22,282 nucleotides of DNA from a virus. This document shows, piece after piece, positions 2,197-22,282 of this stretch. The notes beneath the pieces were generated by a model. That model had not been told where the DNA came from. It saw only the letters and a program-made list of their open reading frames with translations, and did no database searches. The DNA lies in IMG/VR virus record IMGVR_UViG_3300025652_000622, positions 1 through 22,282 of that record, one strand, 5' to 3'. A program made the translations under genes and the position numbers. Positions within the stretch are counted from its first letter, which is position 1. The number at the start of each line of letters is the position of its first letter.

Positions 2197-2415
2197 TTAG
2201 TCAAGGATTTCAACGAGATCCCAGTCTTTGCCCTCATCCTCAAGATACAGCTCTGCGTAGAACCTCTCATCTGCTTGACTTGGGTTTACAATTACTTCGA
2301 GGTATTCCCCTCCTGGGTCTACTGCTCGGACATAACCAATCTCTTCTAAGTCTTCAAAATTGATCTTGATAGTCTTACGCAAAAGCGAAGTCGGATTGGA
2401 GTACAGATTCGACAT
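2197..2415 (-). CDS. Hypothetical acidic protein, 72 aa
   Basis: Overlaps the 3' end of the RNA polymerase gene by 41 nt in a different frame, with an AAAGGAAC SD upstream of the ATG inside the polymerase coding sequence. It begins MSNLYSNPTSLLRKT and is acidic and beta-rich in its second half (EYLEVIVNPS, ERFYAELYLEDEG). Translational coupling to the polymerase is likely. Some T7-like phages encode small acidic inhibitors of host enzymes near the polymerase, but nothing here identifies such a role. Confidence 0.7.
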   Translation of the reverse strand: MSNLYSNPTSLLRKTIKINFEDLEEIGYVRAVDPGGEYLEVIVNPSQADERFYAELYLEDEGKDWDLVEILD

Positions 2416-4546
2416 TTAGTGTTCCTTTCTGAGGGGATAAGTCGAGAGCGTCTAGTTGTGTTAGGATGTCTTCTAGGGGTTCTGCTTGGTATAACTCAAC
2501 AAACTTCTGCCTAACGTGCAAGAACATGTGATTCATATTACCAGCATGACAACCAAAAGAATCATGAACAACGGTTGTAGTGTAGTCCGCATCGTGAATA
2601 CACATTGTTAGGTGAACAGCATCTAGGCTGTGCACTATGTTTGGTGCAGCGCCTGTTTTCTGTTTACTTTCGTTAAGAGTAGTTTCTTCCCACACTTGTA
2701 ATTGAACTTTAAGAAGCTCTTCACCGTATTTTAACTCGGTTCTTTTAGTTGTTGGTTTTCTGTAAGCTTGAAACACAGGGAAGTTTGTCACAGGCGAAAC
2801 CCAAGTCAAGTATACTTTCTTTTCGTTAGCTCTTTCAGCAAGAGTTTGAAATAGTCTTAGCATACGAGCAGGGCCCTTTAGCTCCTCATAGCAAGTCTGA
2901 TACACGAGAGAGCCCAGGAGGGCACCCCAGAGATGCTCCTTGTCCCTTAGATAAGGGGAGATATCCCTTGTATCCTCTATCACCTGTTGGCCCATACCGT
3001 AGGCTGTACCACCGTATCCCAGTGTCATAACGTTACGCTTTACAGTCTTACGTTGAATTTTCTTGTCTTGGATATTCGTCCAGTAAACAGGAAAGAGTTT
3101 TTCTCGCAAGCCTCTGTTTTGATTACGCCAAGTCTGAGCTGCTTGAAACGCTAGTGCCTTTCTTTCAGACTTGTCTGGTGCTTCTTGATACTCTTTTTGA
3201 AGCTTTGTTGCTGTTTGAAACACATCATTAAACTTGTTAATAGTTTCTGGGTCTAACTTGTTCTTTTTGTCTTCAAGGCTGTCCCAAGTCTTTTCTGCGA
3301 TAAACATGTAAACATCACCAGGAAGGTCTTGAGGAACCAAGTTAACCAGAGGGGCAACTTCATCATCTTGAGACATAGCAACAAGGTGTTGAACACCGTT
3401 ATTAGAGCCATCGATGTATACTGGTAAGCAACTTGGGAAGTCTTCTGGTTCGTTACCATCTCCATTCCAGTTAGAAACCATACTATGCTCATGACAAGCA
3501 GAAAGGAAGCTAAAAGGTTTATCAGCTTTCATCCAACCAGTATTTTTCATAGGGTTGTTAACATACGACATCATGTCGTCAAAGTTATCTAGAACCCACT
3601 GAGCACGGTCATCAAGACTAACCTTGTCATTCCCCCAAACGTTAGCAGTATGAACACACAACCAGTAGTAACCGTTTTCCCCTAGAGGCACCGCCTCGTC
3701 TAGCATTAGGATACCCTTTGCATTGTCACTAGACTGCTCGTGTAAGAAGGCTGTGTTAGGGTAGATGCGTCCACGGAAGTCTAGGTTATACAAGTGATAG
3801 AATGGTTTGTCTAGGTTCTTCTCTGCAAGCCTTTGGATAGCCTCTGCTTCGATAATTAACGAAGCCCGTTTAATTGGATCAATCTCCTTTGTGAACTTAA
3901 AAGGGTTTGACTCAGAGTGCATACACTGTTTGTAAACCTCAAAGACAGGTTGATTGATACGCCAAGCTGTATTATTTAGCTTATTTAGAGTATTAACAAT
4001 ATAGCTCATGTCATTCTTCTCAAAGTACTTTAGAGCGTCCTCATAGCCTTTCTTAATAACGCTAATACCTGTTGTAGAGTGATAAGCAGAACCATCCCAA
4101 GGCGCTGCTGGTGTATTTACAGGGAACATGTCACACTTTTCGGTGTCTACAAGATCCAGTAACTCCTTAATTGCTACCCAGTCTTTTGCGTAGATGAAGT
4201 AAGTTCTGTGTTTATCTTTCTTACCATTACGGTAGGTGTGTTTCTTACGATAGCCCAGTATCCCAAGCTCAATATAGCTAATCAGAACAAACCAGCCACC
4301 TTGAATGTCTAGCACACTGTTTTGTTTCTGACGTAGTTTCTGTCTTAACCTTCTACCAATACTACTAGCCACTTCTACTAGGCTGGAGTTTCTTTCTAAA
4401 CCCTTAAGGATGTGAGTGTAAGAGAACTCTACAATATCTCTCGCCCCCATTTCAGTTAAAAAGCTAGCTGCTTGTCTTTTGTCTAACATTCCTTGTCGAT
4501 AAGTTAAATCTTCCTCTAGTAGATCTAATACGGTTTTCTTAGTCAT
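2375..4546 (-). CDS. T7-family single-subunit RNA polymerase
   Basis: DNA-directed RNA polymerase of 723 aa. The catalytic core is intact: DFRGR (256-260, the DxxGR motif); motif A YIDGSNNGVQH with the metal-binding Asp at 379; motif B RKTVKRNVMTLGYG with Lys503 and Tyr511 (T7 K631 and Y639); VHSLDAVHL at 638-646; and motif C HDSF with Asp662 (T7 D812). The C-terminus SDFAFA matches the T7 'foot'. T7 RNAP is 883 aa; the shortening is mainly before the DxxGR motif, so promoter recognition and the N-terminal domain may differ. It should transcribe phage genes from its own promoters. The gene follows a terminator and has its own leader with an SP6-like sequence and a possible host-type promoter. 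Start supported by an AAGGAAGT SD. Confidence 0.95.
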   Translation of the reverse strand: MTKKTVLDLLEEDLTYRQGMLDKRQAASFLTEMGARDIVEFSYTHILKGLERNSSLVEVASSIGRRLRQKLRQKQNSVLDIQGGWFVLISYIELGILGYRKKHTYRNGKKDKHRTYFIYAKDWVAIKELLDLVDTEKCDMFPVNTPAAPWDGSAYHSTTGISVIKKGYEDALKYFEKNDMSYIVNTLNKLNNTAWRINQPVFEVYKQCMHSESNPFKFTKEIDPIKRASLIIEAEAIQRLAEKNLDKPFYHLYNLDFRGRIYPNTAFLHEQSSDNAKGILMLDEAVPLGENGYYWLCVHTANVWGNDKVSLDDRAQWVLDNFDDMMSYVNNPMKNTGWMKADKPFSFLSACHEHSMVSNWNGDGNEPEDFPSCLPVYIDGSNNGVQHLVAMSQDDEVAPLVNLVPQDLPGDVYMFIAEKTWDSLEDKKNKLDPETINKFNDVFQTATKLQKEYQEAPDKSERKALAFQAAQTWRNQNRGLREKLFPVYWTNIQDKKIQRKTVKRNVMTLGYGGTAYGMGQQVIEDTRDISPYLRDKEHLWGALLGSLVYQTCYEELKGPARMLRLFQTLAERANEKKVYLTWVSPVTNFPVFQAYRKPTTKRTELKYGEELLKVQLQVWEETTLNESKQKTGAAPNIVHSLDAVHLTMCIHDADYTTTVVHDSFGCHAGNMNHMFLHVRQKFVELYQAEPLEDILTQLDALDLSPQKGTLNVESVLQSDFAFA

Positions 4547-7390: not shown

Positions 7391-7405
7391 TGACGTATTT
7401 GATAA
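7391..7405 (-). repeat. 15-nt leader repeat, copy 2
   Basis: TTATCAAATACGTCA on the minus strand, identical to 1492-1478. It directly follows the tape-measure terminator T-tract and precedes leader dyad copy 4. Confidence 0.6.
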
Positions 7406-7429
7406 AAAAGGCCACCCCGAAGGGTGACC
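7404..7429 (-). terminator. Rho-independent terminator after the tape measure gene
   Basis: An 8-bp stem, GGTCACCC / GGGTGGCC, with a UUCG tetraloop is followed by six T on the minus strand (plus 7404-7409). It lies 25 nt after the tape-measure stop codon and marks the end of the morphogenesis transcript. Confidence 0.92.
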
Positions 7430-7454
7430 ATTAAGTTTTATTTTGATAAACTAG

Positions 7455-10400
7455 TTATCGACGGTAGTTGCTCTCTTTATTCTGAGAGTTCACACCTTGA
7501 GCAATAGAAGGCATCATCTTGATAATCTCTTTACGAGTTTGTCTAGAGATGTCACCTGTTACAGAGAGGTTAACTACTGTTTGATTGCTGCCATTGTTTC
7601 CAGAGTTACTCTTTAGCAATTCCGCAGTCCGTTGACTTGGTAGGACATACTCACCTGGGGTAAGCATGACAGGTACACTATCTTTACCTGCTTGTCCAAT
7701 GTTGGGGTTAACAAGACCTCCAGCAGCTCTCATTTGAACAATACCGCCAGTGTGAAGCGGAGCACCACTAAGGGCTCCAAGTATAGAGCTTAGGAAACCT
7801 CCGCCGCCGCTGAACATCCCAGAGAGCCCTTCGAAGATACTAGAAAGACCCTCACCAAGAGAGCCAAGTATGCTTGTAAATCCTGCAGAGAGACCAGAAA
7901 GTAGACCTCCGTCTTCCATACCTTCCAGACCGGCTTCAATACCTGTCTTGACCTCAATTCCAGCATTGTTTCCAACACTAGAAGCGCTGCCCATAAGCTT
8001 AGAAAAGAAAGTATCAAACATTGTGTCTAGATTAGAAGCTCTAAAGAAAGCCTGTGTAAAGGAATCTACAACCGTGTCAATAATGTTCTCACTTATAGAG
8101 TCAAGCAAACTTGTAAAGAAATCCTCCATAGAGCTTTCGCCTTTAAGGAGTGATTTAAAACTCTCTGCAAAGGCACTTCTAATATTATCAGAAGCTGCCA
8201 TTGAGTCAGAGGTTATGTTAGCCAACAATTCTTGTTGGTATTCTAGCTCTCTGGTTATATTAGATTTTGTCTCATAATCCAGATTAGAAGCATCGTTTAG
8301 CTGAAGTTGTAAATCAAGTATACGCCTTCCGATGGTTTCTGCTTGAGCACTTTTACCAACTTGCTCAGGATCTAGTCCAAAGGCAGAGTAAGCTTCGTTT
8401 GCTTGGGCCACGCTACCTTGAGTTAAGATATCTAAGATCTCAAGTTTTTGGGCGCGGATTGCTACAAGAGAAGCTTGTCTCGCCTTACTGTCACCTAGTG
8501 CCGCATTAACAATAGCCTTTTGTGCCTTCTCAATTTGTGAAAGAGGGCCTTTCAAGGAGTTAATTGCTTTTCTAGAGAGAGAAGCTGCCATTTCAATATC
8601 AAGCGCAAAACCGCTATCACTTAGTGAACCAACAAACTTTTCAAATACAGTTTCAGTGTCTCCCCCTTTAGACCCAGCCCCCGTGTAGTCTGTTGGCTTA
8701 ACTAGGTTTGTTCTTATAGAGTCAACAATGGCATTTAGAGCAGCTTCTTTTGCTAACAGCTCTGCAGCTTGTTCAGGACTAGGGAGAGAGCCCGCTGCCG
8801 CAGCAGCTGCGATAACCGCAGTAAGTACTGCAATTTCTGTTTGAGCATCCGTAATCTTCTTAAGCGTTGCCGAATCTAGCTGTAGAACTTTATTAAAATC
8901 AAATTCTACATTAGCAAACCTAGAAAAAGCATCAGACAAGAGTTGGCTAGGCTGTGAAGCTGCTGACAACCTAGTTGTTAGCTCCGTTAGTTGTACCCCA
9001 TAACTATTTAGACGAGCAACTTCCGAAGGGGTAACAATACCACCTGAGTCCTTGGCTTGTTGCATAGCCAGAGCTAGGGTGTCATAGTTGGCTTTCAGCT
9101 GTGCGATATTATCTATTTCAGCAGGATCAACGGCAAACAAGTTTGTCTGACTTATTTGGCCAAACTGGCTTCCAAACTGGTCAAAAGCACTTTTAGCAAC
9201 TGTAATTTTGTCGGTAATGTTAGAGAAGCTTGTTGAAAGAACAGCTGCGTTGTCTCCGAGATTCTTTTGAGCGGTTGAAAGTTCAGTGGTAAGAGCGTTA
9301 AGTCTTTCTAGCTCAGCGGGGGTATTAGCAAAAGGTTTAATTTTAGCAATCTCAAATTCAAGATCGTAGATTTCCCTTAAACCTTGCTTTACACCATCTA
9401 GGTTCATACCTTCCGCAAAAGAAATAGAAGCATTTTGCTCAGATGCTTGAGACAACACGCCAACAGTATCCGTTGCTACAGGGCGACGAACTGCCATAGC
9501 GCTTTCAGTTGCTGCTGCAATGTCTGAATCAAGTTGGTATATCTTAGCTAAGATAGTGTCAGAAAGACCCCCAAACATCTCTGCTAGGGCTTTTTGTTGT
9601 TCATCAGCACCTAGTAAAGTAAACTCATCAATATTAAAATCAGGAGTGTTACTAGTGATAAGGTTGGCCCTAGTCCCCATAAGCTCATTTATATTACTAA
9701 CTTCACCCTGATCGAAAGGTGCTCTTTCAAGGTTAGTTTTAAAGCTTTTCTGGGTTAGGATTTCTAAGTCAGTAAAGAAGGCTTCTCTAAAAGCACTCAT
9801 TTCATCAAACTTGCTAATTGCCCCCTGCCTTCCTCTTGCAACATCAAAATTACTTTGAAGATCAGCAGGGAGTTCTTTTGCTAGAGGATCCATAATTGCT
9901 CTAATCATAAGAGCGATAGCACTTGGATTGTCAGCAATTGAGCTAAAGTCGTTACCTGATGACATCGCCAAAGAAATGGCATCTACCATTTCACCAGTCA
10001 AATCACCCTTGGTTGTTGAAAGGGTTTGTAGAATATCTTTAAAATACTGAGGAAGATCGTCGCCGAGGGCCATTAAAGCATCCGCTGCAAAGGCTTGACG
10101 GCTTGCTACTTCCTCAAAGTCATATTTACCAGACGCCAACTGAGCAAAAAGCTGTTCTTGTAGTGTAAGCGCTCTGCCTTTTGTTGGGTCTTCTGTAGCA
10201 TTCCGACCAATAAGTGAAGCCCCCATGCTATCCCTAAGACGCAGTTTAAGGGGATCCATTCCACCTTCATTAACTGCCTCTCGAATAACCTCTGCCCAAC
10301 CAACACCGCCAATTGCTTGAGTTAAAACGTCTTCTATTTTTTTAGAAACACCGGTTGCTGCACCTGAAGTAGTTGAGCCTTCGCCCTTAGCTAAAAGATT

Positions 10401-13400
10401 AGCAGTCTCTCTAGTATTTTCTTCAATCTTTAGACGAGTTGCTTCTGTTAGTCTGCCAAAAACAGCAACTTCTCTATTGCCGTCTTTAGTGAGGCTTGCT
10501 TGTTCTCTTGCTAGTTTTTCTAGCTCCAGTAATTCAGAGTTAGAACGACCAACTAAGGAAGAATTCGCAAGAGAAAAAGTTAGCTCATTAGAACCTTTAA
10601 GTAAGTCTTTGTTCTTCAAGCCTTTTGCTTCTTTTGCTGAAACACTTAAACTTTTTCTAATAGTCTCTCTTGTTGATAGCGCATCCTTTTTGATAAGTCT
10701 AAAGAAGACACCAAAACGAGTAAGACTGTCCTTGATGCGATCTTTAATAGTATCGCCCTTACCAAAGATATAAGCCGCAATCCCTCCGGTTAGTAAAATT
10801 GCAGCGGAAGCTATAGCAGTAATAATTAGAATCGGAATAGCTGCAAAGAAAGCGCTGAGAGCTGCGCTAAAGCCCGCACCAAACGCTGCGCCAGCTGTAG
10901 CTCCAAACCCCGAGAATGCTGTTAATAACCTCTGAAACCCTGCTTTTATTGCAGAAATAGGAGTTGACTTTGCAAGAGCTGCAAAGAGGCCTTTTACTGC
11001 TGGTATGGTTTTTGACACAATAGTGTCACCAAATAAAATAAGGGCAGTCGCACCAAGGGTTAAGGCACCGTTAAAGATACCATCAGAGCTGTTACCATCA
11101 GAACCATCACTGGCTTTTGCAAACGTCGAGGTTACTGCAGTAGCAAGCACCGCCAAAGCACCAATTTTTGCAAGTCTAATAGCAGCTGTTTTGCTAAAGC
11201 TGCCAAAGAAACCAGAGGCCCTAGTTGTAGCCGCCTTCCAAACTTTAACAAAGATGTTAGACGAAGATAGGTTTATAGCTAACATTTTTGAAAGAGATGA
11301 CCTTACAGATCCCAAATCAAAAATATTAGAAAAGATACCAGATACCTTGCTAACATTAATAGACGACACTTTTGAAATAACGCCACTTAACACGTTATTA
11401 AACGTGGAAACAATTGCGTTCACTTTCGCAGGGTCTCCTAGTACTGCTTGTTGCATTACCGAAGCGCCAATACCAACAATAGCAGCCCCTGTTGTGCCGA
11501 TCAAGTCCCCTAGCAACATCTCAGCGCCAATAATATAGCCGCTTAAGGAAGCCAAGGCGGTTAAACCCCTCCTTCTGCTTCTTTGTGCAAGGTCTTGTGA
11601 AAGGCCGTCAAGCTGATCTCTGCTTGCACCTATAATTTGTTTCCTAGCAACATCAGGGTTACTACCAACAAACAAGTCGTAAAGCATGCCCTTCTTTTGC
11701 TTTGCACCTAGAATAGTTAAAGCAGAGGTTGCGAAACCTAAGAACTGCGTCCTCACCCCTTTAAAGAATACTGCTGCTGCAACACCCCCATAGAGTAAGG
11801 TTGTTAGCAGTCCACCGCCAGGTACGAAAGAAAGTATTTTTGCAGGAAGACCTACTATGCTATTGCCAATAGCGTCAGCTAAACCTTCACCAAAGGCTAT
11901 GGCCACTCTTGTGAGTGCTTGTAGTATTTGAGGGATGTTGCTTACGATGCTATCAATAACTGCGCCAACAGTGTTTCCCAAACCATAAGCAACAGACTCG
12001 AAGAAACCACTTTTCAAAATAGCGTTATCGAAAGCTGTTACAATTGCTGTGAAAACAGTAAGATAGAGCAGTGGGTTAAATTTTGATAAAAAGTTTGTAT
12101 ACAAGCTAGGCGCAAACGCTCTTGATAGTGCACCCGCAGCTAGCACAGATATAAAACCTGCAACTGCTGGGAATTGTTTTCTTAAGGTATTAAAAGCGTC
12201 TGAGAACCCATTTGAAAGACTCGATGCAAGCGGGCCTGCAATGTCTACTACGTAGTCTCTTGCTTTTAATGCTTTTAGGTTTATGCTTGATACTGTTAAT
12301 TTAAAGTTTATGTCTGTATCTAAGTCTTTGAAAGACCACAAAGCATACAGGTCTTTAAAGTAATTTGAAACGCCACCTGCAAAGTTTTTAACAACTGCTA
12401 AAGTTTTTGGAAGAAACTCTTGTGCTTTATCTAAAACACCTTCCATAAGGTCTGTCCACCAAGAGTTTTGTATAACTTCGTCGTACAACCAAAAGAATTT
12501 TCTCTCAATAAAATTAATAGATTTTTCTATAATTTTAACAGTATCCCCTAGTGCTGAAGTTGCAATACTTTTAACTTGAGACATTAGGTTGCTAAGGCTT
12601 TTGAAACCCTTAGTAAAAGAGTTATTGAAAGTATTATCAATTGAATTGCCTAGAATTCTGAAGCCCTGGGCTAGCTGGATTATGGCAACTCTAAAAGCTA
12701 CATAAATTTTAGAAGTAGAAACAATACTTGATATTCTTTTAAAAGCTCTTTCAATAACAACTAAGGACTTACCAAAGCGTTCAAAAGACACGTACTTAAA
12801 TGTGGTTAAGTCTTGTTTAAAAACACCAAAGTATCTTCCTAGTTTAATAAACCCAAAAGTAACTTTTCTAAAAGTTGTTTCAACCCTGTTACCAATGTTG
12901 TACCATCGCTTACCGTAGGTATCAATAGCATAGGACAAACCCTTTAGATTTTCCCCAAGCTCTATTAAACTCTTAGAGTTGAATATTCTTGAGAATGCAC
13001 CTTGGAATCCTGTTCCAATCACCTTACTAAGGGTTGCTTTTAACTTAATTGCTGTTCTGTTTGCAAAGGCAAAGACAGTCAAATCCAACGCTTGCAAAGC
13101 TGCAGAGACTTGTTGGAAGAACGTCCTTACTGGAGACACAAAGCGTGGTAAGGCATCGACTGCACGTTGAATAATTGAGCCAATAACTGAGCCAAGCCCA
13201 GACGCAACTGAAATAATCCCGTTAAAGCTATTCTTAAAGTTGAGAATAGTATCCGACACTGAGCCAACTATTTGTGATTTATTTGCTTCAATATACGAAG
13301 ATAGCCGAAGTATTTTGTCTGTATAACTAGAGGTAATATTTAGCTGTTTACTTATTTCTCCTGTTACACGACCAACTTGATCTTTCAAAGTAGTCATTGC

Positions 13401-14093
13401 CTGTGCAGAAGTAATCTCAAGTGTAGAGAATTCGTGGTTTAATTTTTCAGATTGGGATAGCAAAGCATCGAATACAACTGAAGTAGTTAGTTCACCTTGC
13501 TCTGCTAACTTCCTAAGAGCGCCACGAGGCTTGCCCATTGAGTCTGCAATAGCTTGTGCTAGTCTAGGGGCTTGTTCTAGAACAGAGTTAAGTTCTTCAC
13601 CCCGTAGTGTTCCAGAAGCCAAACCCTGACCAAGCTGAGTCAAGGCAGCACGAGCAGATTCAACTGAACCACCAGAAATAGCAATAGATTTGTTTACAGA
13701 CTCAACAGCCTTAAGAATATCTTCAGAGCTCTTACCTGCGCCCTGTAACGCTAGACCAAATCTGTTAAAAGTTTCAGCGGCAAGATCAACTGGCTGACCT
13801 GTTCTTCTTGAGATGTTGTATAGTTTGTCTAGTGTTGTGTTTAACTCTTTTGTACGTCCGGTTACAAGGGCAACCCTGTTCTCCATACTTGTTAAAGAGT
13901 CAGTAGTTCGGTTAATGCCTCTTGTAACAGAGGTTGCTGCAAACGCAGCGCCAATACCAACAGCAAGGGATTTGAAGGCATTTGTTAAGCCTTTTACGTT
14001 TCTATCTATGCTGCCAATTGATTTCTCTAAATTATTTAAATCCCTACGGGCTTGAGTACTATTGGAACGTACTCTAATCTCTACACCACTCAT
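7455..14093 (-). CDS. Tail tape measure protein, 2212 aa
   Basis: Sets tail length and is ejected through the tube at infection. Residues about 70-250 match the phage tape-measure N-terminal domain (LGQGLASGTLRGEELNSVL, then LAQAIADSMG, then AMTTLKDQVG). Long helical stretches alternate with hydrophobic segments in the middle (for example FFAAIPILIITAIASAAILL and GGLLTTLLYGGVAAAVFF), as is usual for these proteins. The C-terminus carries the common GKDSVPVMLTPGEYVL signature, with TPGEYVL at 2145-2151. At about 0.15 nm per residue the tail would be near 330 nm. The preceding leader can fold to hide the ribosome site. A terminator follows, and no distal-tail genes come after it, which is unusual. 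SD AAGGAGAAG lies just before the ATG. Confidence 0.95.
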   Translation of the reverse strand: MSGVEIRVRSNSTQARRDLNNLEKSIGSIDRNVKGLTNAFKSLAVGIGAAFAATSVTRGINRTTDSLTSMENRVALVTGRTKELNTTLDKLYNISRRTGQPVDLAAETFNRFGLALQGAGKSSEDILKAVESVNKSIAISGGSVESARAALTQLGQGLASGTLRGEELNSVLEQAPRLAQAIADSMGKPRGALRKLAEQGELTTSVVFDALLSQSEKLNHEFSTLEITSAQAMTTLKDQVGRVTGEISKQLNITSSYTDKILRLSSYIEANKSQIVGSVSDTILNFKNSFNGIISVASGLGSVIGSIIQRAVDALPRFVSPVRTFFQQVSAALQALDLTVFAFANRTAIKLKATLSKVIGTGFQGAFSRIFNSKSLIELGENLKGLSYAIDTYGKRWYNIGNRVETTFRKVTFGFIKLGRYFGVFKQDLTTFKYVSFERFGKSLVVIERAFKRISSIVSTSKIYVAFRVAIIQLAQGFRILGNSIDNTFNNSFTKGFKSLSNLMSQVKSIATSALGDTVKIIEKSINFIERKFFWLYDEVIQNSWWTDLMEGVLDKAQEFLPKTLAVVKNFAGGVSNYFKDLYALWSFKDLDTDINFKLTVSSINLKALKARDYVVDIAGPLASSLSNGFSDAFNTLRKQFPAVAGFISVLAAGALSRAFAPSLYTNFLSKFNPLLYLTVFTAIVTAFDNAILKSGFFESVAYGLGNTVGAVIDSIVSNIPQILQALTRVAIAFGEGLADAIGNSIVGLPAKILSFVPGGGLLTTLLYGGVAAAVFFKGVRTQFLGFATSALTILGAKQKKGMLYDLFVGSNPDVARKQIIGASRDQLDGLSQDLAQRSRRRGLTALASLSGYIIGAEMLLGDLIGTTGAAIVGIGASVMQQAVLGDPAKVNAIVSTFNNVLSGVISKVSSINVSKVSGIFSNIFDLGSVRSSLSKMLAINLSSSNIFVKVWKAATTRASGFFGSFSKTAAIRLAKIGALAVLATAVTSTFAKASDGSDGNSSDGIFNGALTLGATALILFGDTIVSKTIPAVKGLFAALAKSTPISAIKAGFQRLLTAFSGFGATAGAAFGAGFSAALSAFFAAIPILIITAIASAAILLTGGIAAYIFGKGDTIKDRIKDSLTRFGVFFRLIKKDALSTRETIRKSLSVSAKEAKGLKNKDLLKGSNELTFSLANSSLVGRSNSELLELEKLAREQASLTKDGNREVAVFGRLTEATRLKIEENTRETANLLAKGEGSTTSGAATGVSKKIEDVLTQAIGGVGWAEVIREAVNEGGMDPLKLRLRDSMGASLIGRNATEDPTKGRALTLQEQLFAQLASGKYDFEEVASRQAFAADALMALGDDLPQYFKDILQTLSTTKGDLTGEMVDAISLAMSSGNDFSSIADNPSAIALMIRAIMDPLAKELPADLQSNFDVARGRQGAISKFDEMSAFREAFFTDLEILTQKSFKTNLERAPFDQGEVSNINELMGTRANLITSNTPDFNIDEFTLLGADEQQKALAEMFGGLSDTILAKIYQLDSDIAAATESAMAVRRPVATDTVGVLSQASEQNASISFAEGMNLDGVKQGLREIYDLEFEIAKIKPFANTPAELERLNALTTELSTAQKNLGDNAAVLSTSFSNITDKITVAKSAFDQFGSQFGQISQTNLFAVDPAEIDNIAQLKANYDTLALAMQQAKDSGGIVTPSEVARLNSYGVQLTELTTRLSAASQPSQLLSDAFSRFANVEFDFNKVLQLDSATLKKITDAQTEIAVLTAVIAAAAAAGSLPSPEQAAELLAKEAALNAIVDSIRTNLVKPTDYTGAGSKGGDTETVFEKFVGSLSDSGFALDIEMAASLSRKAINSLKGPLSQIEKAQKAIVNAALGDSKARQASLVAIRAQKLEILDILTQGSVAQANEAYSAFGLDPEQVGKSAQAETIGRRILDLQLQLNDASNLDYETKSNITRELEYQQELLANITSDSMAASDNIRSAFAESFKSLLKGESSMEDFFTSLLDSISENIIDTVVDSFTQAFFRASNLDTMFDTFFSKLMGSASSVGNNAGIEVKTGIEAGLEGMEDGGLLSGLSAGFTSILGSLGEGLSSIFEGLSGMFSGGGGFLSSILGALSGAPLHTGGIVQMRAAGGLVNPNIGQAGKDSVPVMLTPGEYVLPSQRTAELLKSNSGNNGSNQTVVNLSVTGDISRQTRKEIIKMMPSIAQGVNSQNKESNYRR

Positions 14094-14157
14094 GGCTTCT
14101 CCTTAATAAAATTGCCCCCTAATTACATCTCGATTATGAGAAGCCATCAGGGGGCAA
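14092..14157 (-). promoter_or_regulatory. Tape measure leader: terminator-like stem with an SD-masking helix
   Basis: Stem 1 is AGGGGGCAA/TTGCCCCCT (plus 14149-14157 and 14112-14120), 9 perfect pairs followed on the minus strand by TTTTATT, like an intrinsic terminator with a 28-nt loop. That loop holds the complement (14138-14147) of the ten bases at 14092-14101, which contain most of the tape-measure SD and the first two bases of its ATG. The two helices interleave, so an H-type pseudoknot or alternative folds are possible. This would limit transcription or translation of the 6.6-kb gene. Confidence 0.65.
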
Positions 14158-14164
14158 GATTAGT

Positions 14165-14494
14165 TTATTTCGGGGTGATTAATCCAATTGTAAACAGAAC
14201 CTGTTCAATAAAATAACGAGGTGCTTGTTTGCTATGTCCTTTGTTCAAGTATTCAACATACTCTACTTTGTTATAAATAGTTCCGTTTACAAAACCATCT
14301 CTGTCTTTAGTAGTCTCGCTATTCCAACCACTTCGGGCTTTCCCCGTATCAACTGGAGTAACAATTCTTAGAGTCTTTGTAGCATAGTCAATTCTATCTT
14401 CAATCTCAAGATTAGATTGTTTAGAAACTTCCCTGCGTACTCTTTCCATTTCTTTTTTAAAGTTTACTAGCTCTAGGCTTACTTTAATTGACAT
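14165..14494 (-). CDS. HK97 gp10-like neck/minor tail protein, 109 aa
   Basis: Start set at MSIKVSLELVNFKKE (14494) because GGAGTG lies 7 nt upstream; the longer frame to 14560 only overlaps the chaperone gene. The features of HK97-gp10-like proteins are visible: a helical N-terminus, TPVDTGKARSGW at about 52-63, then IYNKVEYVEYLNKGHSKQAP, then FIEQVLF. These proteins usually act at the head-tail junction or in tube completion. In most siphophages the gene sits before the tail terminator; here it lies between the chaperone pair and the tape measure. Family call moderately sure, exact role less so. Confidence 0.7.
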   Translation of the reverse strand: MSIKVSLELVNFKKEMERVRREVSKQSNLEIEDRIDYATKTLRIVTPVDTGKARSGWNSETTKDRDGFVNGTIYNKVEYVEYLNKGHSKQAPRYFIEQVLFTIGLITPK

Positions 14495-14498
14495 GTTA

Positions 14499-15142
14499 TC
14501 ACTCCATTTTAGGTGCCCAACCAGAGCCATCGCCATTTTTGGCAGAAAGCATCTTTTCAAGGAATTTACCTTTTGGTCGTGCGTGGTCTGCTTTCTTTTC
14601 AGATTCCTGTATAGAAGCCATCATTGCCAGAGTTGGAAAGATTTTCTCAGCAGGTTCTTTTACACCCTGTGTCCTAAGGTACATGTAGGCACGTTGATCA
14701 TCTCTCCAGCCAACGGGTCTTCTCTTAAAAAATTCAACCCATTTTAATAGTTCGTCATAGGGCATCTCTTCTTTGAGAGTATAAACTGGCATACTTAAGT
14801 TATATGCCAGCTCATAAATAGACTCGTCAGCGGGTGTTAGTTTCCCGCAGTAGCATCCCCAAGACCAGAGTAGCCCAGAATAGCTGTTGAAATATCGTTC
14901 AATTCCCCAATTGGGAAAGTGTTAAAATCTTCATCGGTAATATCTTCAGCACCGATAACTGAAAGACGAATTACATCTCGCAAAAGAGAAAGCTGCCCAG
15001 AGTCTTCATTCTTTGACTTTGCGGCTTTCTTAACCATTTCTTGTACTTTAAGTACTTCCGAAACGGAGAGCTTACGAATTTCTACCTCGTCGCCCATAAA
15101 AGGGACTTTTTTAGTGATAACTTTACCTACCAAATGTTTCAT
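14499..15142 (-). CDS. Tail assembly chaperone, long frameshift product (gpG-T type)
   Basis: Ribosomes that slip -1 at GGGAAAC (14846-14840) avoid the TAA stop and read on through LTPADESIYELAYNL, MPVYTLKEEMPYDELLKWVE and FFKRRPVGWRDDQRA to the stop at 14499. The result is 101 + 113 = 214 aa. The second part has the typical T-domain look (PYDELLKWVEFFKRRPVGWRDD, 97 aa if counted from an internal ATG). That ATG (14792) has no SD and lies in a hairpin, so independent translation is unlikely. The long form is expected to link the tape measure and tail-tube subunits during assembly, as in lambda. Confidence 0.85.
14786..14810 (-). other. Hairpin over the internal ATG of the T domain
   Basis: CTGGCATA (14810-14803) and TATGCCAG (14793-14786) form a perfect 8-bp stem with a 9-nt loop on the minus-strand RNA. 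The in-frame ATG at 14792-14790 lies within the stem. It starts 29 nt after the slippery site, further than classical stimulators, so its more likely effect is to block internal initiation. Confidence 0.5.
14837..15142 (-). CDS. Tail assembly chaperone, short form (gpG type)
   Basis: 101 aa. The pattern KVPFMGDEVEIRKLSVSEVL, then KVQEMVKKAAKS, then LSVIGAEDITDEDFNTFPIGELNDIS is characteristic of phage tail assembly chaperones, which bind the tape measure protein and help tube polymerisation. The AAGGATTATAAGT leader gives a good start. The gene ends with the slippery GGGAAAC immediately before TAA, so a minority of ribosomes make the long form. It lies between the 79-aa gene and the tape measure region, as expected. 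Confidence 0.9.
   Translation of the reverse strand: MKHLVGKVITKKVPFMGDEVEIRKLSVSEVLKVQEMVKKAAKSKNEDSGQLSLLRDVIRLSVIGAEDITDEDFNTFPIGELNDISTAILGYSGLGDATAGN
14840..14846 (-). other. Programmed -1 ribosomal frameshift site GGGAAAC
   Basis: The minus-strand frame is gcG GGA AAC taa, an exact X XXY YYZ heptamer in the zero frame directly before the stop. The downstream chaperone frame is -1 relative to the upstream one and stays open across the junction. Lambda G-T uses the closely related GGGAAAG. Confidence 0.85.
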
Positions 15143-15153
15143 ACTTATAATCC

Positions 15154-15393
15154 TTACTTTAACTTGTCTTTTTCTGTGAATAATTCTTGGTTATTTGCTT
15201 GAAAATCGTCTAGCAATTTTCTTACTTGGTGCAATACCGAAAGGGTCTCAAGGCAATCTTTACCTTCAACTGAACCGTCTTCAAAATCTTTGAACCGTTC
15301 AAAACTCTTTCGAATGCTAATATCTACGCTACGCCGCATGTGCCTAAAGGTTGTGCGCATAACAAAACTCTTACTAAATGGTTTATCTGTCAT
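15154..15393 (-). CDS. Hypothetical protein between tail tube and chaperone, 79 aa
   Basis: Basic N-terminal half (KSFVMRTTFRHMRRSVDISI) and a helical second half (LETLSVLHQVRKLLDDFQ). It is located between the tail-tube and chaperone genes, where siphophages often have a small extra tail gene. It is separated from the tube gene by a terminator-like hairpin, so it may be expressed less. SD AAGAGAT is modest. No family recognised. Confidence 0.7.
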   Translation of the reverse strand: MTDKPFSKSFVMRTTFRHMRRSVDISIRKSFERFKDFEDGSVEGKDCLETLSVLHQVRKLLDDFQANNQELFTEKDKLK

Positions 15394-15410
15394 GTTATAT
15401 CTCTTATACT

Positions 15411-15439
15411 AAAGAAGAGAGGGCGGTTAAGCCCCCTCT
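15411..15439 (-). terminator. Terminator or attenuator after the tail-tube gene
   Basis: AGAGGG/CCCTCT arms (15439-15434 and 15423-15418) plus an inner GG/CC step with one bulged base form a stem 11 nt after the tube stop codon, followed by TCTTCTTT on the minus strand. A leaky terminator here would help make far more tube protein than the downstream tail proteins. Confidence 0.65.
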
Positions 15440-15449
15440 AATTTCACTA

Positions 15450-15989
15450 TTAGGCTGCAGCAACTGTTGCTGGACCAAAGAAGTCAGACTGAGCCGACAG
15501 AGTAACAGTCGCAGTAGTTGCGTCTGTCAACTGTGGGTTAACCAGAATAGCTTCAATTTTGCCTTTGAAGTAGAACTCTGTGTTTGCAGTTGCAAGAGTC
15601 GAAGCTGCACCTTGATCTGCAGTTACAGCGGATTCTGCCATCATAAAGCGGAATACAAGCTCTTCACCAATCAAAGCGTGAATTGCTTGCATATCTTCTG
15701 CAACGTAGTTAACAGTAACTTCCAAGCTTGGAGCGTCTGCTTGACCCTGAACCTGAGAAGAAGTCTTTTGACCATAAACAGGAACGTTTACGATGTTTGC
15801 AGGAGTACCTACAGAAGGGAACTCACGCACAGAAGGCATACGGACGTGGTCCGCATCAGCTGTACCTGGGGCTGTGCCCACAAAGAGAGCAGCGCACTCT
15901 GCAGCAGTGTCTGTGCCTGCTGGGATTGAGCCTTTAAAGATGTCGAGGTAAGTGAAGATACCTGCACCAAGAGTTGAGATATGAGCCAT
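15450..15989 (-). CDS. Major tail (tube) protein, 179 aa
   Basis: Assigned from position (after the tail terminator, before the chaperones) and from sequence character. It is a beta-rich, Thr/Ala/Val-rich protein starting MAHISTLGAGIFTYLDIFKG, with repeated strand-turn patterns (VTVNYVAEDMQAIHALIGEE, TEFYFKGKIEAILV, TATVTLSAQSDF) typical of tube subunits. It would polymerise as hexameric rings round the tape measure. There is only one such gene and no sheath gene nearby, which indicates a non-contractile tail. SD CGGAGAAT. A terminator-like hairpin follows. No direct diagnostic motif, so confidence is mainly contextual. Confidence 0.8.
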   Translation of the reverse strand: MAHISTLGAGIFTYLDIFKGSIPAGTDTAAECAALFVGTAPGTADADHVRMPSVREFPSVGTPANIVNVPVYGQKTSSQVQGQADAPSLEVTVNYVAEDMQAIHALIGEELVFRFMMAESAVTADQGAASTLATANTEFYFKGKIEAILVNPQLTDATTATVTLSAQSDFFGPATVAAA

Positions 15990-19181: not shown

Positions 19182-22100
19182 CTATGGACCAATTCCATAC
19201 CAGTCCTTACCCGCAGGTATTGGGGCTAGTATTTCTTCTCTTGTAATCTTATCTTTAGGATCGATAAGACCTTGTGCCTTTGCTTTAGCAAGTAAAGCGT
19301 TGTAAGACTTGTTCGATAAACCCTGTCTACGCATTTCAAGAAGGGTCTTTCTGATAGTATTGCCCTCTAGAGCATCTGCATAGATGGTTCTAAGAGCAGC
19401 TTTAGCGTTGTCTGCTTCAGCGATGTTTGTAAAAAAAGCATCGTGAATCGTCCCTGTTTCAACGTTGTTTTTACGTCCCCACAAGTGAAACCTACGTACA
19501 ATAACTGCGTCATTGCTGTGGTTACCATTTACACCTAGTCCGATACGTGCGTCGTTAAGCGAGCCTTTTCCTAGCAGCTTTCCGTCTTGTGCACTGTCTT
19601 CATAGATGTTAGCAATTTTACGACCCGTAACCGGATCAGTAAATTCAATGCGCTCTTGTATCTTTGGTCGATACCTTTGCGTCATAATCTTTCCGTCAAA
19701 AGTAACCCACGGTATATCTACCTTTTGAGTTTCTTCAACAAAAACCTTTGCCACGTCTTTCCAGTAGTTAATGAAGTTGTCTGTAACCGGAGCACGTTGT
19801 GCTAGGTTCTTAGACATGATTCTAGAAACTTCCGAAAATTCTTTTGGGCCAATTATCCCTCGTCTGGAGTTCATAAGTTTATTTACAAAATCCGCAGTAT
19901 CAGGATGAATGTCTTGTGCTTGCTTTAACAAAGTTCTACCAGCAGGTTCATTCTTGTTGATCATTTCAATTAGTTCTGCTCTAAAAGAGGTTAACTCTGA
20001 TTCAACACCAATGGCACCTTGCCGATTAGCAATCTTAATTTTACCATCAATAATCCTAAGTTGTTCACCGAGGTTATCCTTAGTGACAGTAACATATCCT
20101 TTGCCATCAAGAACTTTTGATAACTGTCCAGCAACGTTTGCAGTCTTAGTCGCATCGCCCGCTCCGTAGAAAGAAACCATATTCTGTGACTTAGCCGCCT
20201 TAGCTAGGTCTTCCCAAGTAAGACTTGCGTCTCTCAATGCAGGAATCTTTAAGAAATCAGGATCGTTAACGGTGTCCATCGCAACTAGGTCATATAGGCG
20301 GTTTTTCTGAGTGGTTGGCAAAACATTACTTGCAAGAGATACTTTACGATCACCCGTCGAGAGTCCAATGATTTGAGCACCAGAAGAACTGGCGTCGTTT
20401 TCAATCATTAACTTTGTCTTATAGGTTGACAAACGAGATACATTGTTAAAGTCACCGTTTACATGATCATAAACACGAGCGTACTCTAGAGCCATTCTAG
20501 ACATCTTAGGCACTTCAGGGCCTTCAAGCCCTTTAATAAGTGGATGTTCTAGAAATTCCCTAAGCCTACGATCTCTTTGTGTCTTTGACTGAAGCAACCT
20601 TCCAAGTTCAAGTAACTTTGATTCATTCCTACGAAAGATTTCTAGACGTCCAGATTGAGTAAGTGCTTCCGTGCCAGGACCAATCATAGCTCCTAACTGA
20701 ATACGAAGCTCCCTCATTGCGCCTGGTGTCATAGACTTTGCAGTACCTGAGTTTAAAAAAGGCCGAACAAGCTCACCACCAGTAGGTGTAAGATAACCAC
20801 GATGGTATACCCGTCCACGGGAGTCAATAAAGACATTTGTTCTAAAGTTCTTATTACGCTGCGCATGAAACTTAACAGTTGACATAAGGCCATAGCCTTG
20901 TTCTCCACGATTAAGTATTTCATGCCGAAGTTCGTTTATAGAGTCATAATATTTAGAGTTACCACGAGGATCTCTGAAACGTACAATGTCGTCCATAAAG
21001 CCTGCAAATTCAACATCAACACCATACTCGACGTTAGACACATGATTCATCATCTGTGCCATTTCAGCATCAATTTGTTTGGCATCATAGTCAGCAAACT
21101 TATCACGAGAAATAATAGGTATACCTGTGTCGTTTCCACGAGAGTCTACAAAGGTCTTTTTGTTTGCCTTAACATACAATCTATCCTTATCATTGATAGT
21201 TCCTAGACGTCGAGCAATAGTTACTCTTCGCTCTGCCTCTTGGAGCTTTATCAAACCCTTATCAATAACAATAACTTCCCTAGAGATAGTGTCTTGCCAC
21301 CCACCGGAAGTTCTTCCAGTTTCCAGATCAAGTACACCTCTTCGTGTTTTACCTCTAAACTGAACTTTGATCATGTTTTGTTTGACCATAAAGTCTAATA
21401 TTTTAGAGCCTTCCGCATGATTATCTCTCAGCGTGTTTTTAGTAAAGGGTATAAGGTTTTCAAAATCTTTCGAGAACTGCTTACCAATGTTAATCGCAAG
21501 AGAGTCGTAATCAGTTGACTGCCCTGATGAAATTAGCTTGGCAATCTTAGTGATACTATTAAGTGCTGCGTCATCCATTACTTTAGAAGTAGGCTTTTTG
21601 TCAGCAATCAAAAATTCCATATCTAGAATTCTTCGAATAGCTTCATTCTTTTTTGATACGAGTTGTGTCCACCAAGAATCAGAAGGTTCTCGATTGTATA
21701 AGAATTTGTAAGAGTCATAAGCTTGCTTTACAAAGGGTAACTTTAAGAATTTTTTCTTTAGTTTATCCTTAGAAGGATACTTTTCAGTAAACCCGTTAAA
21801 GTAAACCCGCATAGGTGACCTACCAGTAAAGAACAGCTTTTTGGCTAGGGCTTTTCCTTCGGTACTACGCCAAGCATCAATATAACGTTGATCTTTTAGC
21901 TGGTCTCTTACAAGCTCTTCAAAGTTGTAGTACTTACCCATAATCTGAACTTGTGGAGTATCCTTGGACAAATAGCTAACAAACATCTCTGACCTTTGTC
22001 GTGAGCGGGTGTCTAAAAGCCTTGAAACGTTCTGAACAGCAAACCTGTTTTCCGCTCTAACAACTGAAGCAAAATCTTGCCAAGGGTCTTTGTTTTTAGC

Positions 22101-22282
22101 ATAACGCTCAAAAACAACCCTTAAGTTCTCTACAATTACTGTCTGTTGGTTAACAGAAAGCTTATCATCGAGACTAGAAGCCATTGATTCAATAAAGTCT
22201 TTTTCTTCTAATTTTAGAAGTTGGGACTTTCTCATAAAGTCAATACGCTCTTGGTAGAGGTTGAAGTCAGGGTCATAGAGGT
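19182..22282 (-). CDS. Divergent single-subunit RNA polymerase, candidate virion RNAP (5' end outside the window)
   Basis: At least 1017 aa from the first ATG (22235); the frame remains open to the window edge. Core motifs, numbered from that ATG: DSRGR (471-475, DxxGR motif); motif A ENDASSSGAQII with Asp614; motif B AKSQNMVSFYG with Lys682 and Tyr690, spaced as T7 K631 and Y639; GNHSNDAVIVRR (His906, matching the HSxD segment of T7); motif C GTIHDAFFT with Asp932. The rest is unlike T7. The 250-residue distance from motif B to C (T7: 181) and the size recall the N4 virion polymerase core of about 1,100 residues. Its place beside the scaffold and capsid genes fits a packaged enzyme injected with the DNA. 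Polymerase identity is well supported; packaging is inference. Confidence 0.88.
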   Translation of the reverse strand, partial: LYDPDFNLYQERIDFMRKSQLLKLEEKDFIESMASSLDDKLSVNQQTVIVENLRVVFERYAKNKDPWQDFASVVRAENRFAVQNVSRLLDTRSRQRSEMFVSYLSKDTPQVQIMGKYYNFEELVRDQLKDQRYIDAWRSTEGKALAKKLFFTGRSPMRVYFNGFTEKYPSKDKLKKKFLKLPFVKQAYDSYKFLYNREPSDSWWTQLVSKKNEAIRRILDMEFLIADKKPTSKVMDDAALNSITKIAKLISSGQSTDYDSLAINIGKQFSKDFENLIPFTKNTLRDNHAEGSKILDFMVKQNMIKVQFRGKTRRGVLDLETGRTSGGWQDTISREVIVIDKGLIKLQEAERRVTIARRLGTINDKDRLYVKANKKTFVDSRGNDTGIPIISRDKFADYDAKQIDAEMAQMMNHVSNVEYGVDVEFAGFMDDIVRFRDPRGNSKYYDSINELRHEILNRGEQGYGLMSTVKFHAQRNKNFRTNVFIDSRGRVYHRGYLTPTGGELVRPFLNSGTAKSMTPGAMRELRIQLGAMIGPGTEALTQSGRLEIFRRNESKLLELGRLLQSKTQRDRRLREFLEHPLIKGLEGPEVPKMSRMALEYARVYDHVNGDFNNVSRLSTYKTKLMIENDASSSGAQIIGLSTGDRKVSLASNVLPTTQKNRLYDLVAMDTVNDPDFLKIPALRDASLTWEDLAKAAKSQNMVSFYGAGDATKTANVAGQLSKVLDGKGYVTVTKDNLGEQLRIIDGKIKIANRQGAIGVESELTSFRAELIEMINKNEPAGRTLLKQAQDIHPDTADFVNKLMNSRRGIIGPKEFSEVSRIMSKNLAQRAPVTDNFINYWKDVAKVFVEETQKVDIPWVTFDGKIMTQRYRPKIQERIEFTDPVTGRKIANIYEDSAQDGKLLGKGSLNDARIGLGVNGNHSNDAVIVRRFHLWGRKNNVETGTIHDAFFTNIAEADNAKAALRTIYADALEGNTIRKTLLEMRRQGLSNKSYNALLAKAKAQGLIDPKDKITREEILAPIPAGKDWYGIGP

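Follow-up and report, generated by a model that had tools for sequence, protein, structure and literature searches.

A conserved GAUGG hairpin ahead of the tape-measure gene of long-tailed phages, and its probable role as a leaky terminator

The tape-measure gene of the DNA analysed here, a stretch of 22,282 nucleotides from a marine phage that we call the window, is preceded by an RNA hairpin that is conserved among relatives. The conserved order of parts is an outer stem GCCC(C)..GGGC, a GAUGG on its 5′ arm, a short inner stem, a U-rich tract, a Shine-Dalgarno (SD) sequence and the tape-measure start codon. We propose that this element, lying between two cistrons, is probably a partial (leaky) class I terminator that acts on the T7-like RNA polymerase of the phage itself and would lower the tape-measure protein below the head and tube proteins. 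The phage polymerase would transcribe the head and tail-tube genes and, once it had made the GC-rich hairpin with its U-rich tract, a fraction of the polymerase complexes would stop; the enzyme stopped would be that of the phage rather than that of the host. The remaining complexes would read through into an SD and start codon lying within about 20-25 nt, so that less tape-measure mRNA would be made. The tape-measure protein, present in few copies per virion, could thereby be set below the capsid and tube proteins, present in hundreds.

The leader is on the minus strand, flanked by a gene for a tail-completion/neck-type protein (14165-14560) and by the tape-measure gene (14093..7455). In the 5′ to 3′ direction it reads TTGCCCCCT-GATGG-C-T-TCTC-ATAATC-GAGA-TG-TAATT-AGGGGGCAA-TTTTATT-AAGGAG-AAGCC-ATG. 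Its parts, and the genes concerned, are as follows.

14165..14560, minus strand: upstream gene, tail completion/neck-type protein (PHROG_5, 2.7e-12); its stop codon lies 5′ of the hairpin
14149..14157, minus strand: 5′ arm of the outer stem P1 (TTGCCCCCT); the GCCC/GGGC pairs are present in 61/61 leaders and the inner P1 pairs vary on both sides
14144..14148, minus strand: invariant GAUGG, 5′ arm of the middle helix M; in 61/63 full-length unbiased leaders, with 0 parsimony changes
14138..14147, minus strand: lineage-specific anti-SD strand ATGGCTTCTC; overlaps GAUGG and P2, inside the loop of the 9-bp stem
14138..14141, minus strand: 5′ arm of the inner stem P2 (TCTC), from fold prediction; relatives also show an inner stem
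14128..14131, minus strand: 3′ arm of P2 (GAGA), from fold prediction
14121..14125, minus strand: 3′ arm of the middle helix (TAATT in the window), mostly wobble-paired to GAUGG; pairing kept in 90-98% of leaders
14112..14120, minus strand: 3′ arm of P1 (AGGGGGCAA), pairing with TTGCCCCCT over a perfect 9 bp; TTTTATT comes next
14105..14111, minus strand: U-rich tract 3′ of the hairpin (TTTTATT); the longest T run is at least 4 in 53/60 leaders
14099..14104, minus strand: SD of the tape-measure gene (AAGGAG); SD-like sequence in 60/61 leaders
14092..14101, minus strand: GAGAAGCCAT, partner of the anti-SD strand; part of the SD plus the AT of the start codon
7455..14093, minus strand: tape-measure protein gene, 2212 aa (Pfam TMP_3, 3.9e-55; PHROG tail length tape measure)
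2375..4546, minus strand: T7-like single-subunit RNA polymerase, the presumed reader of the element (Pfam RNA_pol, 2.2e-81)

A first-pass annotation, made from the letters of the window, had described two interleaved helices here and judged them very unlikely by chance. Both are present and perfect: the 9-bp stem pairs TTGCCCCCT (14157-14149) with AGGGGGCAA (14120-14112), and the 10-bp helix pairs ATGGCTTCTC (14147-14138) with GAGAAGCCAT (14101-14092), which takes up part of the SD together with the first two letters, AT, of the start codon. Chance is indeed a poor explanation, as two stems of at least 9 bp occurred in 0/3000 dinucleotide shuffles of the 70-base stretch, while any perfect stem of at least 9 bp occurred in 1.3% and one of at least 10 bp in 0.37%. 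The further inner stem TCTC/GAGA was missed, and so was the GAUGG directly inside the outer stem, which on sequence comparison is the conserved part.

To follow the element in relatives, leaders were collected via protein searches only (with the upstream gene and the tape-measure N-terminus), the RNA itself not being used; this gave 64 distinct leaders, one of which ends before the element. GATGG stands between GCCC and GGGC, at the same place, in 61 of the 63 full-length ones. The two exceptions are L525, with GATGC in a similar hairpin, and L540 (44% identical), with no hairpin; GATAA is seen in the hairpin of L012, a distant relative of the upstream gene. The element is present in the Naomviridae phages DSS3_PM1 and DSS3_VP1, the leader of VP1 being the same as that of PM1. 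The median pairwise identity of the tape-measure N-termini is 54% for the 60 proteins used for the tree.

The terminator-like stem of the first-pass annotation is thus conserved, and it carries compensatory changes. When pairs are counted in register, those of P1 and of the GAUGG helix form in 90-100% of leaders. In a 30-row alignment of the eleven-pair stem, 98.5% of cells are paired and two P1 pairs vary on both sides; the covariation score is 0.343 versus 0.241 for shuffles (0/500 as high), with slid controls at or below 0.159. The mean minimum free energy of the hairpin is -24 kcal/mol, a stable GC-rich hairpin of the kind found in class I terminators, and about 20-25 nt separate its end from the tape-measure start codon.

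Judged by sequence, the conservation of the middle helix is one-sided: the 5′ arm is fixed and the 3′ arm drifts through wobble pairs, its common forms in relatives being CTGTT, TCGTT, CTGTC and CCATT. By parsimony on the tape-measure protein tree, the strand opposite GAUGG has undergone 61 changes (13, 2, 16, 13 and 17 per base) and GAUGG 0, in a tree set that was chosen to contain GATGG and from which just two full-length leaders were excluded for want of it. P1 positions adjoining the middle helix show 8-15 changes on either arm. A G-U pair turned into A-U, or a U-G into C-G, through a change in the 5′ arm was never seen, though pairing would be kept or strengthened. Because such changes never occur, GAUGG is selected as a sequence and not merely as half of a helix.

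The AUG within GAUGG is as invariant as the motif, and a leader peptide starting there and controlling the hairpin could be imagined. We consider this scarcely credible: an SD precedes that AUG in 0/60 leaders, the AUG falls 24, 19 and 17 times in the three frames as set by the tape-measure gene, and the lengths of the putative peptides are erratic. A leader-peptide attenuator is ruled out by the lack of an SD and the random frame in these 60 leaders.

A protein that recognises GAUGG would be another reason for the motif to be kept. The hairpin would then be an RNA operator, or a processing or stability hairpin, by means of which a protein of phage or host origin governs how the tape-measure mRNA is translated or cleaved, and the U-rich tract would be incidental. 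The 0 changes in GAUGG versus 61 in its partner strand fit such a reading, as does the lack of pairing-neutral changes through the 5′ arm, by which sequence and pairing are both selected. So do the seven of 60 leaders in which the T run is eroded to 2-3 while hairpin and GAUGG stay (e.g. L494, AAACTTATT), an observation that counts against a terminator, and the distance of about 20-25 nt from hairpin to start codon. Most leaders nevertheless have a U-rich tract after the stem, no candidate protein was identified, and both the layout and the pattern of a constant 5′ arm with a wobbling 3′ arm recur in the terminators of the T7 group. Altogether we regard an operator or processing hairpin as unlikely, with the invariant GAUGG and the eroded tracts leaving some room for it. 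Direct contact of GAUGG with the polymerase, or with some other protein, is conjecture. A broader suggestion, which we make tentatively, is that the hairpin represents a new phage regulatory RNA family whose GAUGG is read directly by a protein, be it the polymerase of the phage or one of the tail or head proteins. If so, tape-measure expression would be tuned or timed by specific RNA recognition rather than by a generic terminator, and GAUGG would be a recognition code across Naomviridae-like phages.

The 10-bp helix fared differently from the stem. According to the first-pass annotation, the loop strand pairs with the SD, in a competing fold or a pseudoknot, and so times tape-measure translation. 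Within the window the pairing is a perfect 10 bp, and the competing folds it envisaged are energetically possible, being predicted at -38.1 versus -38.3 kcal/mol over 126 nt and at -51.4 versus -51.2 over 196 nt. In general, too, loops match the SD region somewhat better than their shuffled versions do (mean -10.0 versus -7.6 kcal/mol), a modest complementarity of a pyrimidine-rich 5′ arm to a purine-rich SD. However, loop:SD pairing over 10 contiguous bases is found in the window and L526 only, the latter a near-identical contig (from L004). L450, L527 and L529, whose tape-measure N-termini are 81-83% identical, have at most 4 contiguous Watson-Crick loop:SD pairs, and relatives thus lose the helix without compensation. 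For the other 58 leaders, a loop paired with its own SD scores no better than with permuted SDs (-9.73 versus -9.44, p = 0.12). In every relative the outer stem is predicted to form with a probability of about 1.0, compared with 0.41 for the window and 0.51 for L526, and the hairpin, being transcribed ahead of the SD, should fold first. We therefore reject an SD-sequestering switch or pseudoknot, loop:SD complementarity being neither kept nor compensated among relatives, and hold such a device to be very improbable. The bistability of the window leader, as modelled, is real on paper and private to its lineage, and the SD-hiding helix is probably an accident of that lineage or a local extra brake. 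What stands of the earlier proposal is that a structured RNA lies ahead of the tape-measure gene and probably restrains its expression; the interleaved helix as the device does not stand.

For a leaky terminator, the hairpin is followed directly by a U-rich tract (TTTTATT in the window), and a single-subunit RNA polymerase is encoded in the window (2375-4546) and in the well-covered relatives and is missing from the element-free outgroups. The window polymerase is 56% identical to that of DSS3_PM1, an enzyme of 732 aa. RNA_pol genes are present in all 12 best-covered element-bearing records and, more broadly, in every element-bearing record tested, two fragment records showing a second, diverged kind only. 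Five phages with related tape-measure proteins (Rhizobium P11VFA and RHph_I4, Ruegeria Tedan, Pseudomonas D14E and Acinetobacter B1251) have neither an RNA_pol gene nor a significant match to the covariance model R1; the sole weak match among them, in B1251 (E = 0.049), is away from the tape-measure gene, and P11VFA and RHph_I4 have about 25 bp only ahead of that gene. Polymerase and element could also co-occur merely as markers of one phage group. A further point against the leaky terminator is that a 5′ arm fixed in sequence is more than a plain terminator requires.

The second, diverged RNA polymerase lies in the C-terminal portion of a minor head protein (window 19182-22235, minus strand; Pfam RNA_pol, 1.3e-5), which is 65% identical to a 1463-aa 'minor head protein-like' protein of DSS3_PM1. 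From its sequence it looks like a virion-carried enzyme, in a long-tailed phage, besides the canonical T7-like polymerase. Both kinds are present in most relatives.

A promoter-like motif, ATAGGKKRCGTTAAAGA with G-rich sequence behind it, occurs in 15 strong copies in DSS3_PM1; every copy is on the coding strand, and the scores stand clearly apart from background. Examples lie at record positions 21730, 25927, 37853, 47925 and 64410 (L448/L449), and one copy is 1.37 kb upstream of the tape-measure gene. The motif is likely to be a promoter of the phage polymerase. Few sites were seen at the equivalent place in relatives, support being confined to DSS3_PM1, and upstream of the tape-measure gene of the window the motif was not clearly found; a weaker candidate is at about 2188 (ATACCTGACGCTAAAGAAC). 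The DNA of DSS3_VP1 and DSS3_PM1 has been reported to carry deoxyuridine in place of thymidine (PMC12697855).

These data bear on a further reading, in which it is the host RNA polymerase that stops, at an ordinary intrinsic terminator or attenuator, and the tape-measure level is affected in the same way. A GC-rich stem with a U tract is a bacterial signal as well, and class I signals stop both host and phage polymerases (PMC11347151). The element is nonetheless missing from the five tape-measure relatives that have no phage polymerase, and phage-promoter-like motifs lie upstream in DSS3_PM1. An invariant 5′ arm would also not be expected of a host terminator. We consider a host terminator decidedly unlikely, more so than an operator.

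Other signals in the window may be recorded here. Directly 3′ of the tape-measure gene is a terminator-like plain hairpin without GAUGG (GGTCACCCTTCGGGGTGGCC TTTTTT; 7399-7432, minus strand). Also 3′ of this gene are four copies of GCATCTATAATGATATAACA (7356, 7047, 6677 and 5598, minus strand), which resemble host-type -10 promoter elements; GCATCTATAATGA has three occurrences in DSS3_PM1 too. A hairpin GAGGGGGC..GCCCTCTC lies directly 3′ of the major tail protein gene (15391-15460, minus strand); at the equivalent place DSS3_PM1 has the promoter-like motif and a hairpin, and L490 and L527 are similar.

The element is specific in its placement. R1 gives a single strong match in the window and a single one in DSS3_PM1, at the tape-measure gene, with nothing further in the latter at E up to 10. 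Over 19 whole records there is one strong match in each of the 17/17 element-bearing ones, some with a weaker opposite-strand mirror, and weak matches only in the two element-free records, L540 and L012; wherever its position was checked, the strong match sits at the tape-measure gene. With a stricter DNA pattern in viral contigs, a tape-measure start follows in 76/83 distinct elements among the matches listed. One strong copy per record and the tape-measure starts behind the pattern matches tie the element to this gene, rather than marking it as a general terminator of these phages. The stricter pattern has 75 matches in 257 Gb of bacterial genomes, and the translations listed for them show no tape-measure context; the looser patterns CTGATGG..AGGGGGC and CTGATGGC..AGGGGC gave mostly chance matches and were set aside. 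Rfam has no family above its gathering threshold, the best sub-threshold matches being far under their gathering scores, and our literature search found no description of the element, Naomviridae or DSS3_PM1 being mentioned in few papers.

The leaky terminator would amount to a testable rule for how much tail-ruler protein is made relative to shell and tube proteins, across a group of environmental long-tailed phages, and the motif is a signature for finding the tape-measure genes of this group.

Among known systems, RNA operators of phage coat proteins (e.g. that of MS2) are small hairpins, conserved in part of their sequence, near a start codon. The element is alike in these respects; it differs in that the start codon is outside the hairpin, a U-rich tract follows and any binder is only putative. 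With the class II signal of T7-type polymerases (HATCTGTT) it shares a 3′ arm that often reads CTGTT or CTGTC, and in L493 and L507 ATCTGT(T/C) lies inside the stem, resembling engineered hairpin-plus-pause hybrids (PMC9157156). Whole HATCTGTT is absent from the 60 elements tested; L477, outside that set, reads TATCTGTT. In the element, however, the 3′ arm is the variable one, and this variation rules out a class II pause sequence as the main conserved signal.

The closest likeness is to Tphi, the terminator between genes 10 and 11 of T7, with a hairpin, six U, an SD and an ATG in a layout like that of the window element. The annotation puts Tphi at 24210 and the gene 11 start at 24228, so that the terminator ends 18 nt before the start. 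In its native form the T7 terminator contains five G-U pairs; in vivo it halts 62% of polymerases and reduces downstream relative to upstream genes (PMC9157156). With Tphi of T7 and its relatives (T3, gh-1, KP32, FE44) the element shares a GC-rich base, a G-U-rich middle, a small loop and a U-rich tract, a tail gene whose SD and start follow within about 20-25 nt, a location behind the capsid gene block and a phage-encoded polymerase. A near-constant 5′ arm with wobble changes in the 3′ arm is also common to both: in nine T7-group phages (T7 and eight relatives) the 5′ arm CCCCUUG(G/A)G is near-constant and the 3′ arm changes by wobble-keeping transitions. The differences are that the element has GCCC..GAUGG where Tphi has CCCCUUGGG, that it precedes the tape-measure gene of long-tailed phages, that some of its U-tracts are eroded and that its termination is putative. 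R1 has no match in T7, T3, gh-1, KP32, FE44 or PF7A, and the element thus has no sequence homology to Tphi. By analogy of layout, then, it may work like Tphi without being a sequence member of that family. The comparison suggests that the solution seen in T7, a leaky terminator set atop the ribosome site of the next gene, arose also in unrelated phages with a T7-like polymerase. One-sided conservation, found in 61 leaders and apparent also in nine terminators of the T7 group, suggests that it may be the 5′ arm that phage polymerases read.
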